From: Phenylobacterium sp. SCN 70-31
GTDB taxonomy: Bacteria > Pseudomonadota > Alphaproteobacteria > Caulobacterales > Caulobacteraceae
Direction: 5' to 3'
DNA: 64,000 nt
Assembly: GCF_001724605.1 (NCBI RefSeq)
Contig: NZ_MEEX01000021.1
Location: 18,501-82,500, forward strand
The position numbers were made by a program, and so were the translations under genes. Below, one piece after another: positions 55,846 through 63,645 of the stretch. The notes beneath the pieces are model-generated. The model made no database searches. It was not told the DNA's origin and saw only the letters and a list, made by a program, of their open reading frames with translations. The number at the start of each line of letters is the position of its first letter. Within the stretch, counting starts at the first letter, position 1.

Positions 55846-55921
55846 TCCCCGATAGCTCAGTTGGTAGAGCAGCCGGCTGTTAACCGGCTTGTCGCAGGTT
55901 CGAGTCCTGCTCGGGGAGCCA
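55846..55921 (+). tRNA. tRNA-Asn (GTT)
   Basis: TCCCCGA/TCGGGGA acceptor, loop CTGTTAA, TTCGAGT T-loop, CCA encoded. Confidence 0.96.
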
Positions 55922-56010: not shown

Positions 56011-56484
56011 ATGCCTCGCTATGCATCCGAAACGACCGTCTCGGTCGAGAAGTCCCGAATCGAAATTGAACGGACGCTCGCGCGCTACGGCGCTGACGCG
56101 TTCGCCTACTTCGCAGAAGCCAATCGGGCGATGGTCGCGTTCCGCATGGCGGATCGGCAGATCAAGTTCGTCCTGACGCTCCCTGAGCGGAACCTTCCCG
56201 AGTTCACGCATCACAGCCGAGGGCCGCGAACCGCCGAGGCGGCGTTGACCTCCTGGGAGCAGGCCTGCCGCCAACGCTGGCGAGCGCTCGCGCTAGTCAT
56301 CAAGGCGAAGCTCGAAGCAGTCGCCGCCGGAATCACGACCATCGAAGACGAGTTCCTGGCGCATACCCTCCTGCCCGACGGCTCGACCGTGGGCGAGTGG
56401 GCGAAGCCTCAGCTCAACGAGGCCTACCAGCTCGGCCACATGCCGACCACGCTCCTTCTGGCGGCTCCGGCAGGTGAAGCATGA
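56011..56484 (+). CDS. Phage-type hypothetical protein
   Basis: 157 aa, first ORF after tRNA-Asn, 4-bp overlap with next. Confidence 0.6.
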   Translation: MPRYASETTVSVEKSRIEIERTLARYGADAFAYFAEANRAMVAFRMADRQIKFVLTLPERNLPEFTHHSRGPRTAEAALTSWEQACRQRWRALALVIKAKLEAVAAGITTIEDEFLAHTLLPDGSTVGEWAKPQLNEAYQLGHMPTTLLLAAPAGEA

Positions 56485-57326
56485 CCACCCCCGAACCCTC
56501 CGTAGCGCCCGCTGAACCTGCTGTAGTGGGGAGGCTGACGAGAGAGCGTCCGATCCTCATGAGCGCCCCGATGGTGCGGGCGATCTTGGACGGGCGGAAG
56601 ACGCAGACGCGGCGGCTATTCAAGGTCTTTCCGGGCGACCGGAGCGGCATCACGTCCCCGCGCGAGGAAGTGCAGCGCTGGGAGGACGGATCATTCCATT
56701 ACCTGTCCACAGCAGGTTTGAGCGGCCCCTACACATGTCCATACGGCGACCCCGGCGACCGGTTGTGGGTGCGGGAGGCGTGGAAGACCTATTCCACGTT
56801 CGAAGCCGTGCCCCCGCGCAGTATCCCCGACACCGCGCGCATCTGGTACATGGCCGACACCGGATACCTCCCAAGCGGGAGCCGAGGACGCCCCGGCATC
56901 CACATGCCGAGGTGGGCGAGCCGGATCACGCTCCAGATCACCGGCGTCCGGGTCGAGCGGCTGAACGACATCAGCGAAGCGGATGCGATAGCCGAGGGGC
57001 TATACAAGTCCTACCCCACTGATGCCGACCGTGAGTGGTTTCGCGACTGGACCCACGAGCGTACGTTTGCAGAGCCAACCGCCGACGAGTGGGCCGATTT
57101 TGAATGCGGCGTCTGGAGGGTCCCCGGCGTGCCTCAAGGCTGGGGAATGTCCCCGGATGAACGGCGCCAGGACAGATGGGCGCCCACTCCGGAGTTCGCC
57201 TACAGGCTCCTTTGGGAGCACATCAACGGGGCGCAGTCGTGGTCCGAGAATCCGTGGGTGTGGGTCGTTGAGTTTGAGCGCGTTCCCTCCGGTCTCGCCG
57301 CCCTCCAATCAGGAGAGAAGGGATGA
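56481..57326 (+). CDS. ASCH/PUA-like phage protein
   Basis: RPILMSAPMVRAILDGRKTQTRRLF and YGDPGDRLWVREAW patterns. Confidence 0.75.
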   Translation: MTTPEPSVAPAEPAVVGRLTRERPILMSAPMVRAILDGRKTQTRRLFKVFPGDRSGITSPREEVQRWEDGSFHYLSTAGLSGPYTCPYGDPGDRLWVREAWKTYSTFEAVPPRSIPDTARIWYMADTGYLPSGSRGRPGIHMPRWASRITLQITGVRVERLNDISEADAIAEGLYKSYPTDADREWFRDWTHERTFAEPTADEWADFECGVWRVPGVPQGWGMSPDERRQDRWAPTPEFAYRLLWEHINGAQSWSENPWVWVVEFERVPSGLAALQSGEKG

Positions 57327-57631
57327 GCGGAACCGCCCCTCGCCCTGAGGCGCAATTCGAGCCGGCCAAACACCCCGCGCCGCCGGACAAGGACGCGCCC
57401 GTTCGCGCGCTCTGTGAGGCCGCCGGGCCGTTGTGGACGAGAGGCGGAAAGCACTTCGAACGAGCGCGGCGGATCGTGGCTGGAAAGCTCGGATGGCGCT
57501 CGGCGGATGTCCTGGATTGGGAGGTTCGATCATACCTGCGGATGGATCGGCCGGCCTGGGCGGATCGCGCCGGCCTTCCGCTAGCCGAAGCGGATTTGTC
57601 CCCTCTCTCGACCAAGGCCACCACCCCATGA
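57323..57631 (+). CDS. Phage hypothetical protein
   Basis: 102 aa, 4-bp overlaps on both sides. Confidence 0.55.
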   Translation: MSGTAPRPEAQFEPAKHPAPPDKDAPVRALCEAAGPLWTRGGKHFERARRIVAGKLGWRSADVLDWEVRSYLRMDRPAWADRAGLPLAEADLSPLSTKATTP

Positions 57632-57816
57632 CCCCCGAAGAGATAGAAGCGGTGATGTCAGCCATCGCCGATCTTGTGCCTCTGGAGGACGGCAGCCTGT
57701 GGTCGCCCCTTCACTCGCCCTCGTGGCCCGGCGACTACTCAACGTCTGAACGGCGGTTGCGTCGGTCTATCGCCCGCGCCGCCATCGAGGCTCTAGATCG
57801 GGTGCGGGGGAAGTGA
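57628..57816 (+). CDS. Small phage hypothetical protein
   Basis: MTPEEIEAVMSAIADLVPLEDGSLW; overlapping operon. Confidence 0.5.
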   Translation: MTPEEIEAVMSAIADLVPLEDGSLWSPLHSPSWPGDYSTSERRLRRSIARAAIEALDRVRGK

Positions 57817-58187
57817 TGAAGCCTCAGCGCATTCAGTTGAGCCGGGCCAAGGGCTGGCGGATGCCGCCCAACACCGCGAAGGTGGATCGCTCGACGCGGT
57901 GGGGGAACCCGTTCGGGCGGGAGAACGCCATCGCCAGCGGCTACGCCACCGAGACCAACTGGCGCGCCTTCGTGGTCGAGTGCTTCCGGGATTGGATCGG
58001 ACCGACCCAGAGAGGCCGGGACTGGTGGCAGGGACCCGAGAGCGACCGCCGCCGACGTTGGTTCGTGGAAGAGATCGACCAGCTTCGCGGCAAGAACCTC
58101 GCCTGCTGGTGTCCCCTCGGCTCGCCCTGCCACGCCGACGTACTGCTGGAGCTGGCCAACGCCCCTTCTGAAGAGGGAGAGGGGTAG
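57813..58187 (+). CDS. DUF4326-domain protein
   Basis: RIQLSRAKGWRMPPNTAKVDRSTRWGNPF; NLACWCPLGSPCHADVLLELAN. Confidence 0.85.
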   Translation: MMKPQRIQLSRAKGWRMPPNTAKVDRSTRWGNPFGRENAIASGYATETNWRAFVVECFRDWIGPTQRGRDWWQGPESDRRRRWFVEEIDQLRGKNLACWCPLGSPCHADVLLELANAPSEEGEG

Positions 58188-58459
58188 ATGCTGCGGGCCG
58201 GACTGGATACCGGCTGACCGGGATTACATGGCGCGTAGCACCCGGCCGCTCTCTCACCGCTGTGCATCTATCTGCACCGCCGCAGCGCCGGGAACCTAGC
58301 ACTGTTCGGCCAAGAGGGTAGATGCTGCGGAGGCCGGACCCCGAATGTCCCGGCGAACTATCCACTGGGGCGACGGCCTGGGGATTTACCGCGTCGCTCC
58401 GCAGCCCCTCCAGAATCCCACGTTACGCCGGCCGCCGCAACGCTTGACTCCGACTTTAT

Positions 58460-58474
58460 GTTCACTCTTTGTTC
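58460..58474 (+). promoter_or_regulatory. Putative LexA (SOS) box GTTC-N7-GTTC
   Basis: GTTCACTCTTTGTTC; 32 bp upstream of ATG 58507, downstream of TTGACT (58444-58449). Confidence 0.65.
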
Positions 58475-58506
58475 GATCTCCGACGAGATCAGACAAGGAG
58501 CATCCG

Positions 58507-59001
58507 ATGGTCCACCGAACATACGCCGGCCTTGGGTCGCCCGACCTCGCCATCCCGGCCTTCAACAAGCTGACGCCCTGGGCCAAACGGCTCTTGGAAC
58601 TCCAGGGTCAGTTCGACCGCTTCACCGCCGGTTGGCTCGCGTTCGGCATCGCAATCGAAGCGCTGGAGACCACGGCTTACCACTTCACGCGGCGTCCCCG
58701 CTTCTACGAGCGATTGAGCGAAGAGATGACGCCTGCGCCTGGCACCAGCCTGCTCGGCCAGCCCGCGGAGGTCATCAAGACCTTCATCGGCCTCACGCCC
58801 TACCATGACGCGCTGATCTCGATGCTCCAGCAATGCCGACCGATGGGGCGGGACTACATGGCTATCCTGATCGCGAAGGACGGCCTCGACTCCGCCGCCT
58901 ACCACTTCACTCGCGAGGATCGGTTCTTCGCGCCTCGGTCGGACAGCACCGGCCCCATTCGTGGACCGGCCGGCCATGTGCTTGCGGCGTCATCGGCATG
59001 A
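58507..59001 (+). CDS. Hypothetical protein with internally duplicated AYHFTR motif
   Basis: 164 aa; start chosen by position behind the LexA-like box; two copies of ...AYHFTRxxRF. Confidence 0.65.
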   Translation: MVHRTYAGLGSPDLAIPAFNKLTPWAKRLLELQGQFDRFTAGWLAFGIAIEALETTAYHFTRRPRFYERLSEEMTPAPGTSLLGQPAEVIKTFIGLTPYHDALISMLQQCRPMGRDYMAILIAKDGLDSAAYHFTREDRFFAPRSDSTGPIRGPAGHVLAASSA

Positions 59002-59177
59002 CCGCCAACCTCCCAGCCGATCCCTACGCCCGCTGGGCGATGGACGATCTCATGGCGGTCTGGGACCTCGCCCACCGCGACGGCGGGGCGGTCGATCCCG
59101 CCCTCGCCCGCCGGGTGGCTGGCCTCTGCGCCGAGAGCGACGCGCTGCTGGACCGCGCCGAGGGCGAGAAGGCGTGA
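58998..59177 (+). CDS. Small phage hypothetical protein
   Basis: MTANLPADPYARWAMDDLMAVWDL; ATGA overlap with upstream gene. Confidence 0.5.
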   Translation: MTANLPADPYARWAMDDLMAVWDLAHRDGGAVDPALARRVAGLCAESDALLDRAEGEKA

Positions 59178-59183
59178 GCGCCG

Positions 59184-59381
59184 ATGAAGTTCGAGACCCT
59201 CGGCAACATGCTCGGGCCCTCCGAGACGCTGAAGGTCAAGTGCCGGGCCTGCGGGCGCGTGACGGCGTTCCCGGTCAAACTCGCGATCCGCGCGTTCGGC
59301 CCCGACGCGACACCCTACGACGTCCGCCGCAAGGCCCGCTGCACCGCCTGCCGCGCCCGCCATCCCGACGTCTGGATGTGA
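59184..59381 (+). CDS. Small zinc-ribbon-like protein
   Basis: KCRACGRVTAF...RCTACRARHP (two CxxC). Confidence 0.6.
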   Translation: MKFETLGNMLGPSETLKVKCRACGRVTAFPVKLAIRAFGPDATPYDVRRKARCTACRARHPDVWM

Positions 59382-59423
59382 ACCCAACTTGCCGGGCAGC
59401 CGCAGCGGCGCGAGGGTGAACCC

Positions 59424-60089
59424 ATGTGCAATCTCTACACCCTCGCGCCCGGCCTCGACGCCCTGGCGGCCGACTTCGAGAAGCTCGGGATCAAGCTGCG
59501 GCTCACCAGCCCGCAGGCCTTCGACAACCAGCCATTGAAGCCGTACGTCGCGCCCAAGGGCCTCGGGATCTTCGCCCGGCCCATCGACCCCGCCGCCCCG
59601 GCCGAGGGCCTGGAGCCCGTCGTCGGGACGTGGGGCGTCATCCCCTTCTTCCACAAGGGTCCCGCCAAGGCGTGGAAGTCGGCCACGAACAACGCCCGCT
59701 CCGAAGACATGCTGACCAAGCCGACCTGGCGCGGGATCGTGAAGACGAACCGCTGCATCATCCCGGCCGATGCGTTCACCGAGTGGACCGGGCCTAAAGG
59801 CGCGAAGACCAAGCACGCGATCACCCGTGCCGACGGCCAACGTCTGTTCTTCGCCGGGCTCTGGGCCGACCACACCTGGGAGGGCGAGCGAACCGAGAGC
59901 TACACGATGGTGATGCAGGCCGCAGGCGGTGACGACGACATGGCCCCGTTCCACGATCGACAGCCCGTCGTGCTCGACCGGGACAGCGCCCGCCTCTGGC
60001 TCGACCTGTCCGCCGATCCGCTGGCCGCGATCCGGCCTCCCCTGCCCGGTACGTTGGCGTTCGACCCGCCGGAGCCGGCGGCGGCTTAG
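59424..60089 (+). CDS. SOS response-associated peptidase (SRAP/YedK/HMCES family)
   Basis: MCNLYT N-terminal catalytic Cys, NNARSE, RCIIPADAFTEW, TTxxxxH-like region. Confidence 0.93.
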   Translation: MCNLYTLAPGLDALAADFEKLGIKLRLTSPQAFDNQPLKPYVAPKGLGIFARPIDPAAPAEGLEPVVGTWGVIPFFHKGPAKAWKSATNNARSEDMLTKPTWRGIVKTNRCIIPADAFTEWTGPKGAKTKHAITRADGQRLFFAGLWADHTWEGERTESYTMVMQAAGGDDDMAPFHDRQPVVLDRDSARLWLDLSADPLAAIRPPLPGTLAFDPPEPAAA

Positions 60090-60895: not shown

Positions 60896-61174
60896 TCATC
60901 GACACCCCGTGCTCGCCGCCTCCAGTCCTGCGATATAGCCGTCTCTCTGCTCCCGTCCTGCCAGGAGTAGGCGGACCCGCTCTGCGATGTCAGGGGCGCC
61001 CTTGAGGGCTGACGGGCTGTCGGCGTAGGTCGGTCGCGGCGGGGCTTCGGCGGCGCACGGGACGGGGATAGGGACCTTTACCTCAACGGTGCGGATCGTG
61101 GGCTCGGGCGTCGTGGCGCAGGCGGTGAGGGTCGCCGAAACGACCCCCACCAGGACGATGCGGTCAGGCCGCAT
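60896..61174 (-). CDS. Rz1-like outer-membrane spanin lipoprotein
   Basis: Lipobox LTAC, Pro-rich PIPVPCAAEAPPRPTY; last gene of lysis block. Confidence 0.65.
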   Translation of the reverse strand: MRPDRIVLVGVVSATLTACATTPEPTIRTVEVKVPIPVPCAAEAPPRPTYADSPSALKGAPDIAERVRLLLAGREQRDGYIAGLEAASTGCR

Positions 61175-61568
61175 GGGTTCCCTCGACACCGCGGACCATA
61201 CGGGCTCGGGTTCGGGCGCCGAGCCACTGTTGCGCCTCCTCCAGCTTCGTGAGCGCCAGGGCATTCTCACGGCAGGAGAAGGGGCCGGCCTGGAAAGCGC
61301 GGAGCCGGTCCACGAGGATCGCCAGCAGCGCCTCATGGGTGAGGCCGTTGACGCCCACCTCGCCGATAGGGCCGTTCTGGAACAGGATCGTCGAGTGCTC
61401 CGCCGGCTGGCCATGCCGGGCGGTCCACGGATCGGAAGGGTTCGACGCGCTGTTGAACCCCGTGATGTGGTACAGGTGACAGGCCCCGCCGGAGCCCGGC
61501 TCGTCCAGCACTTCGATGACGAGCTTGTCGTTAGCCGGGTTCACCCGGTGATCGGTGAGCGTGCGCAT
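61164..61568 (-). CDS. Phage protein with Acb2/Tad1-like hairpin C-terminus
   Basis: MRTLTDHRVNPANDKLVIEVLDEPGSGGACHLYHITGF...LFQNGPIGEVGVNGLTHEALLAILVDRL...CRENALALTKLEEAQQWLGARTRARMVRGVEGTHAA. Confidence 0.7.
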   Translation of the reverse strand: MRTLTDHRVNPANDKLVIEVLDEPGSGGACHLYHITGFNSASNPSDPWTARHGQPAEHSTILFQNGPIGEVGVNGLTHEALLAILVDRLRAFQAGPFSCRENALALTKLEEAQQWLGARTRARMVRGVEGTHAA

Positions 61569-61636: not shown

Positions 61637-62032
61637 TCATTCCCCGTACTGATCGATCAGCCGCGCGGCCTCGGCGCACTTGTCCGGCCCGATCCGCTCG
61701 GACAGGATGCGATCCACGTTCCGCCGATGGCTCTCTGCGACAGCGCGGGCCGCCTGAGCCGCCTTTCGGCTTTCGGCCACTCTGGCGTCGGCTTCCCGCT
61801 TGAGCCCGTCCACGGCCCGGTTGTGGGCGGCTATCGACGCCTCCAGGCCGGCCCGGTTCCGCTGGCAGGCTTTCGTCTCGTCGCGGGCGGCGTCGCGGGC
61901 CTTAGCGGCAGACGCCACCTCCCCCTTCAGCCGATCGATCCTCGCCCCCGGCCCTACGAACGGGGTGACGTGGTACAGGCCCACGGCAAGGGCCGCGGTC
62001 AGGGCGTAGGGGGCAAGGCGGAGGGCGATCAC
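61637..62032 (-). CDS. Rz-like inner-membrane spanin (GTG start)
   Basis: N-terminal TM then long coiled coil, GPDKCAEAARLIDQYGE; GTGA overlap with lysozyme. Confidence 0.75.
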   Translation of the reverse strand: MIALRLAPYALTAALAVGLYHVTPFVGPGARIDRLKGEVASAAKARDAARDETKACQRNRAGLEASIAAHNRAVDGLKREADARVAESRKAAQAARAVAESHRRNVDRILSERIGPDKCAEAARLIDQYGE

Positions 62033-62502
62033 GCGAGGCCCTCCATGCAGAGTTTGCGTTCGGCCGCACGCCGGTTGACCAGGCCGCGCATCTTCTGGCC
62101 GCCCGCGTACACCCACTTCGACAACTCGGCGCACGCGCCCGGCAGGTCCCCAGACCTCGCCTTCCGCGACAGGGTGGACGCGCAGAACTTCGTCGCCCCG
62201 ACGTTGAACCCGAACGAGACGAAGGCCGCGTGCGTCTCCAGCGGTAGGGTCTCCGGGAGGCAGGGGGCGATATCGAGCCCGTGCTTCACCACGTCGTCGG
62301 CGAGCATGCCGACGCACTCCTGCTCCGTGTATCGCTTGCCCAGCACTACGCCCCTGGTCGAGCCATAGCAGGCGGTCGGTAGGTTCACGCCAAGGGCGGG
62401 GTCGGGATAACCGACCGGGACATAGCCCTCGAATGCCGCGATGGTACCGACGGCGACGGATGATGCCGCCAGGACCCCAGCTAGAACCCTGACCCTACTC
62501 AT
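62029..62502 (-). CDS. Phage lysozyme (GH24, SAR-type N-terminus)
   Basis: FEGYVPVGYPDPALGVNLPTACYGSTRGV; hydrophobic weakly charged N-terminus. Confidence 0.85.
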   Translation of the reverse strand: MSRVRVLAGVLAASSVAVGTIAAFEGYVPVGYPDPALGVNLPTACYGSTRGVVLGKRYTEQECVGMLADDVVKHGLDIAPCLPETLPLETHAAFVSFGFNVGATKFCASTLSRKARSGDLPGACAELSKWVYAGGQKMRGLVNRRAAERKLCMEGLA

Positions 62503-62552: not shown

Positions 62553-63248
62553 ATGGCGAAGAACCCCCGACTGATTGACATGACAGGACTGCGCTTTGGC
62601 CTTTGGTCCGTGCAGGAGAAGGCCGGGAACAGCCCAAGAGGCGGCGCGCTTTGGACGTGCAGATGCGACTGCGGCCGCTCCGGTGTCGTTGCGGGATCTG
62701 ACCTTCGCGGCGGGAAATCCACGAACTGCGGTTGCGCGAATCTGAACCGCCTCGGCGACCTCCGCCGAACGCACGGCTCTACAACTACCCGCCTGTACGG
62801 CATCTGGCAGAACATGCGCGCCAGGTGTCGCAATCCCCGCAACCCGGGTTACGTCCACTACGGCGCTCGCGGAATTTCGATCTACCCCGAGTGGGAGGAG
62901 TTTTCCGCATTCTCCGAATGGGCCGAGGCCGCTGGCTACGCGGACAACCTGTCCATCGAGCGGGTCGATAATGACCGCGGCTATAGCCCAGAGAACTGCA
63001 TCTGGGCCGACGCCAAGACGCAGGCGCGAAACCGCAGCATCGTTCGACGTGCGCCAGACGGTAGATCGTGGGCCGAGATCGCGGAGGTTAACGGGGTTTC
63101 GGCGCGAGTCCTCACGAACCGCATCAACGCTGGCGGATGGCCGCCGGAACTCGCCGCGACGTGGCCAGTCGGTAAGCGATTGAACCCCAACGCCACGAAT
63201 GCCCTCGGGCAGTTTGTGAAGCGCGAGGCTCATCTTTGGCGCCGATAG
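62553..63248 (+). CDS. Phage HNH-like / homing-endonuclease-type protein
   Basis: Zn-ribbon WTCRCDCGRSG..NCGC, RLYGIWQNMRARCRNPRNPGYVHYGARGI, LSIERVDNDRGYSPENCIWAD. Confidence 0.75.
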   Translation: MAKNPRLIDMTGLRFGLWSVQEKAGNSPRGGALWTCRCDCGRSGVVAGSDLRGGKSTNCGCANLNRLGDLRRTHGSTTTRLYGIWQNMRARCRNPRNPGYVHYGARGISIYPEWEEFSAFSEWAEAAGYADNLSIERVDNDRGYSPENCIWADAKTQARNRSIVRRAPDGRSWAEIAEVNGVSARVLTNRINAGGWPPELAATWPVGKRLNPNATNALGQFVKREAHLWRR

Positions 63249-63300: not shown

Positions 63301-63645
63301 TCATATCGCAGTCCCCATGAGGAACTGATGCGCCGCCGCCGCGATGGCCGCCCCGAACCGGTAGAAGATCACGATGCCGCTGGCCGCCCCGAGGATCGTG
63401 AGCGCCAGCTTCCCGTGCTCCATCCACCCCATCGACGCCTTCACGGCCGGCGGGCCCTTGCTGAACAGGTCCGTCAGCGTCTTCACCGAGCCCGCGATCT
63501 CATCGACCTTCTTCGCCAGCGCGTGGATGCACTCGTGCGTAGCGTTCTGACCGTCTGCGAGGTCCTGCAGGGCCTCCGGCGTGCGCTTGCCGCGCGTCTC
63601 AACAGGCTTGAAATCCACGTCGGCCCTCACTGCTCTCGGTGACAT
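63301..63645 (-). CDS. Holin-like phage membrane protein
   Basis: 114 aa, C-terminal hydrophobic LALTILGAASGIVIFYRFGAAIAAA; in lysis block. Confidence 0.55.
   Translation of the reverse strand: MSPRAVRADVDFKPVETRGKRTPEALQDLADGQNATHECIHALAKKVDEIAGSVKTLTDLFSKGPPAVKASMGWMEHGKLALTILGAASGIVIFYRFGAAIAAAAHQFLMGTAI

Follow-up and report, generated by a model that had tools for sequence, protein, structure and literature searches.

A full-length Tad1 homologue between the spanin-like genes of a Phenylobacterium prophage lysis cassette

Tad1 (Thoeris anti-defense 1) proteins are reported to act as hexameric sponges that take up gcADPR and cyclic di- and trinucleotides and leave them intact (PMC12043709). 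A beta domain has been described for Tad1 that is absent in Acb2 (anti-CBASS 2), a short helical protein (PMC12043709). The Tad1 of phage phiKZ, which is delivered into the cell with the phage (PMC13282480), has been reported to act against both CBASS and Thoeris (PMC12043709, PMC13282480). Here we describe a gene in a 64,000-nucleotide stretch of contig NZ_MEEX01000021.1 from Phenylobacterium sp. SCN 70-31 (hereafter the window) whose product is a full-length Tad1 homologue and thus a new member of an already known family. We hold with high confidence that it is a prophage-borne nucleotide sponge of the Tad1 family. The gene lies on the minus strand in the order endolysin, i-spanin-like gene, tad1, and o-spanin-like gene, within a probable lysis region comprising the following features.

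60896..61174 (-), o-spanin-like lipoprotein of 92 aa with the lipobox LTAC; phrog_3580 at 1e-18
61164..61568 (-), tad1 homologue of 134 aa, identified by ORF, homology, and fold
61637..62032 (-), i-spanin-like protein of 131 aa with an N-terminal TM segment and a coiled coil; PHROG 3774, function unknown
62029..62502 (-), endolysin (phage lysozyme), Pfam Phage_lysozyme at 1.8e-31; 4-base overlap with the i-spanin-like gene
63301..63645 (-), possible holin of 114 aa, upstream of the others, proposed from sequence only by its C-terminal hydrophobic segment

A first-pass annotation of this DNA had proposed a 134-aa ORF at 61164-61568 without naming its strand. The ORF is present, on the minus strand, and both quoted segments, CRENALALTKLEEAQQWLGARTRAR and VNPANDKLVIEVLDEPGSGGACHLYHITGF, occur in its translation. 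A good Shine-Dalgarno-like site (AAGGGAG) lies 5' of the ATG, and the ORF was picked in its stretch by a host-like codon-position pattern matching that of the surrounding genes. The protein had been described as ending at the quoted motif; the motif is in fact internal, and the C-terminus reads MVRGVEGTHAA, a conserved tail belonging to the family signature in an alignment of 40 relatives.

Searches against PDB sequences revealed similarity to solved Tad1 proteins far beyond chance. With the single sequence as query, phmmer matched CmTad1 (E 8.3e-22, residues 56-132), CbTad1 (E 3e-16, residues 17-132), and the phiKZ-type gp184 of PDB 8Y6V (E 3.7e-18), and beyond Tad1 proteins and gp184 it returned no meaningful match. 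A family profile built from the 40 relatives recovered the same seven distinct PDB sequences and strengthened these scores (CbTad1, 7e-36; CmTad1, 9e-30; gp184, 2e-26). In both searches, homology to characterised Tad1 proteins spans the beta domain as well as the hairpin. Recognition of an Acb2/Tad1-type hairpin in the first reading of the sequence was therefore right at the family level, as judged from the Tad1 matches in the PDB, the fold, and the context. The proposed check against a hairpin profile gave a mixed outcome: Pfam PF24729 (Acb2_Tad1_hairpin) does match, at E 2.3e-5, with a score of 24.9 bits that falls slightly below the curated cut-off of 27 bits. NCBIfam offered no model for the protein, and every PHROG family it matched is without a known function (phrog_2428 at 1e-30).

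The predicted structure agrees with this assignment. An AlphaFold monomer model computed from the same 40 sequences (mean pLDDT 93.2, pTM 0.82) places strands first and two long helices after, the Tad1 architecture of an N-terminal antiparallel beta-sheet followed by two long C-terminal helices; the helical hairpin that had been looked for is thus part of the predicted fold. The beta domain covers approximately residues 1-63, the helices residues 78-94 and 100-126, and the conserved VEGT tail follows. Foldseek against the PDB gave 20 matches at E<=0.001, every one a CbTad1 or CmTad1 chain, with noise below; they include gcADPR and cA3 complexes, and the top match is 7uaw, a 1''-2' gcADPR complex (1.3e-10, TM 0.76/0.81). 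As several Tad1 ligand complexes have already been solved, the function of the family is not unsettled, as had been supposed. The ~90-aa N-terminal domain highlighted earlier is indeed not found in Acb2 (PMC12043709), but it is no extra domain; it is the standard Tad1 beta domain and aligns with that of CbTad1. Likewise, the suggested larger, two-domain form of sponge reduces to ordinary Tad1 architecture, a beta domain plus a C-terminal hairpin.

An enlarged Acb2, in which an Acb2 hairpin acquired a new N-terminal domain and acts mainly against CBASS signals, is a highly improbable reading. The Pfam hairpin model common to Acb2 and Tad1 speaks for it, but no Acb2 chain was retrieved from the PDB up to E 10 by phmmer or the profile, none appeared among the best 50 Foldseek matches, and the alignment with CbTad1 takes in the N-terminal domain as well. 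We rejected a new enlarged Acb2 on the evidence of sequence, model, and Foldseek, no match to Acb2 having been obtained within these limits and the beta domain being present.

Residues of a putative signal pocket are among those conserved in the family. Q64, G75, N102, R119, R123, V128, and G130 are invariant in the 40-member alignment. In the profile alignment, N102, R119, and R123 correspond to N92, R109, and R113 of CbTad1, and F82 of CbTad1 is retained as F92. These four CbTad1 residues presumably line the pocket for the gcADPR signal. Five close Tad1 relatives with 53-71% identity (at L004, L005, L007, L015, and L031) differ at the start of the second helix, where CRENALALTKLEEA has given way to another sequence or is heavily altered (ASPDNQEALDAMRTAQ in L004, for instance). 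All five keep the N and the RTxxR...VEG tail; the changed helix start perhaps reflects altered trinucleotide binding.

Within the lysis cassette, the endolysin assignment is strong. Both neighbors of tad1 are best termed spanin-like, on the basis of their anatomy, their position, a weak match of the lipoprotein to the Rz-like spanin family phrog_456 (4.8e-4), and an adjacency repeated in relatives. Gene order and anatomy thus bear out the earlier placement of the ORF between Rz-like and Rz1-like spanin genes, with the qualification that these are spanin-like; the 3' end of tad1 and the o-spanin-like gene have 11 bases in common. A 92-aa TM protein at locus L075 is placed like the 114-aa possible holin. 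An antisense HNH endonuclease gene (62553-63248, +) separates the putative holin-like gene from the endolysin. It has the look of a further insertion, given that in the related genome G178 the endolysin closely follows a small TM protein gene.

Among 299 genomes of the host's bacterial family, relatives of the o-spanin-like gene occur in 44 and relatives of the i-spanin-like gene in 11, the host's own genome included. The two genes are direct neighbors, no more than about 90 bases separating the matched stretches, in at least seven genomes (G178, G214, G022, G053, G204, G239, and G071), and in G178 the endolysin, i-spanin-like, and o-spanin-like genes follow one another in that order without tad1. 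Since the spanin-like genes adjoin without an insert in these related genomes, tad1 looks like cargo in a late operon, and its insertion into a pre-existing lysis cassette is the simplest history. The arrangement is mildly unusual: among the loci examined, only this prophage has tad1 between i-spanin-like and o-spanin-like genes. Tad1 relatives have diverse neighbor families, RecE, RecT, integrase, and terminase being some of the commonest. We tested and rejected the idea that the wider Tad1 family has a conserved place in lysis cassettes, as the lysis genes of the window recur at no related locus.

The position of the gene, between spanin-like genes and overlapping the start of one of them, would also suit a Tad1-fold protein that lost its sponging activity and was recruited to lysis, for example to adjust spanin function or timing. 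We give this idea very little credence, given that the protein keeps the residues conserved across its Tad1 relatives, that close relatives adjoin recombination, integrase, terminase, and other genes and not this lysis cassette, and that related cassettes exist without tad1.

Tad1 relatives were found in 123 phage records, including Agrobacterium/Rhizobium, Bacillus, and Pseudomonas jumbo phages, and in 60 viral contigs with identities of up to 73%. Those from Agrobacterium/Rhizobium phages share about 50% identity across the whole length, and one RefSeq phage record among the relatives carries the annotation Tad1. Few bacterial genomes have a relative; within the host's family, tad1 is confined to this genome (1 of 299). 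The contig and the window share their right end, so the prophage is incomplete. A tRNA-Asn (55846-55921, +) bordering the phage-like genes on their left is a likely prophage attachment site. Plus-strand accessory phage-like genes (56011-60089) face the lysis operon and encode phrog_17260, phrog_874, and phrog_464 proteins and an SRAP (SOS response-associated peptidase) protein.

For the sponge reading, the following mechanism can be proposed. Once its gene had been taken up as cargo between the two spanin-like genes, the Tad1 homologue would assemble as a hexamer of three dimers. Six pockets, each formed by N-terminal loops and the C-terminal tail of one subunit against the helices of its partner, would hold gcADPR, the Thoeris signal, and some cyclic dinucleotides, while cyclic trinucleotides may sit at two trimer interfaces. 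TIR or CD-NTase alarms of the host would then be unable to activate their effectors. Most likely, the protein sequesters gcADPR and/or cyclic di- or trinucleotides and blocks Thoeris or CBASS, the ligands and the blocked defense being predicted by analogy. Because the genes overlap or lie close together on one strand, tad1 probably shares a transcript with the lysis genes, and its product would be most abundant late.

Late expression would fit defenses triggered by structural proteins; ThsB1, for instance, recognizes a phage major head protein (PMC12043709). That a sponge made together with the lysis proteins serves to quell alarms raised by the capsid protein or other late products is an unlikely extension; if true, host cell death would not pre-empt programmed lysis. 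A cognate defense system was sought in the same genome and not found; the STALD search, which matched no control, carries no weight here. The host genome yielded no CBASS SMODS cyclase and a single ThsB_TIR match, near recA.

G000:C7:190193-190519 (L073 4071-6092) (+), TIR-TPR protein of 673 aa with the ThsB_TIR match

No ThsA-like neighbor of this protein was recognized. The ThsB_TIR family search also gives matches in Caulobacter vibrioides.

The locus adds a prophage member to the Tad1 sponge family in a host whose family-level relatives almost all lack tad1. Its predicted mechanism is unremarkable, and no new mechanism is opened. What it illustrates is that the junction of the two spanin genes in a lysis cassette can take up Tad1-type genes as cargo; short anti-defense genes that lack annotation might be looked for there.

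Among known systems, gp184 of PDB 8Y6V, presumably the phiKZ Tad1 (the product of orf184), is a 230-aa protein whose C-terminal ~110 residues are homologous to the window protein; the latter lacks its N-terminal extension. The phiKZ Tad1, compared with the window protein through gp184, is injected along with the phage (PMC13282480). Acb2 has in common with the window protein the helical hairpin and the name of the Pfam model, but is short, helical, and devoid of the beta domain that the window protein possesses (PMC12043709). The best matches in both sequence and fold remain CbTad1 (7UAV, 7UAW, 8SMD, 8KBE-H) and CmTad1 (8KBB-D), which share with the window protein their length, the beta domain and two helices, the C-terminal VEGT/VLGT tail, and the aligned putative pocket residues. 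Identity to CbTad1 is about 36% over the fold alignment, and the loop leading into the last strand (around residues 37-57) is longer in the window protein. Unlike CbTad1 and CmTad1, it is encoded between spanin-like genes.
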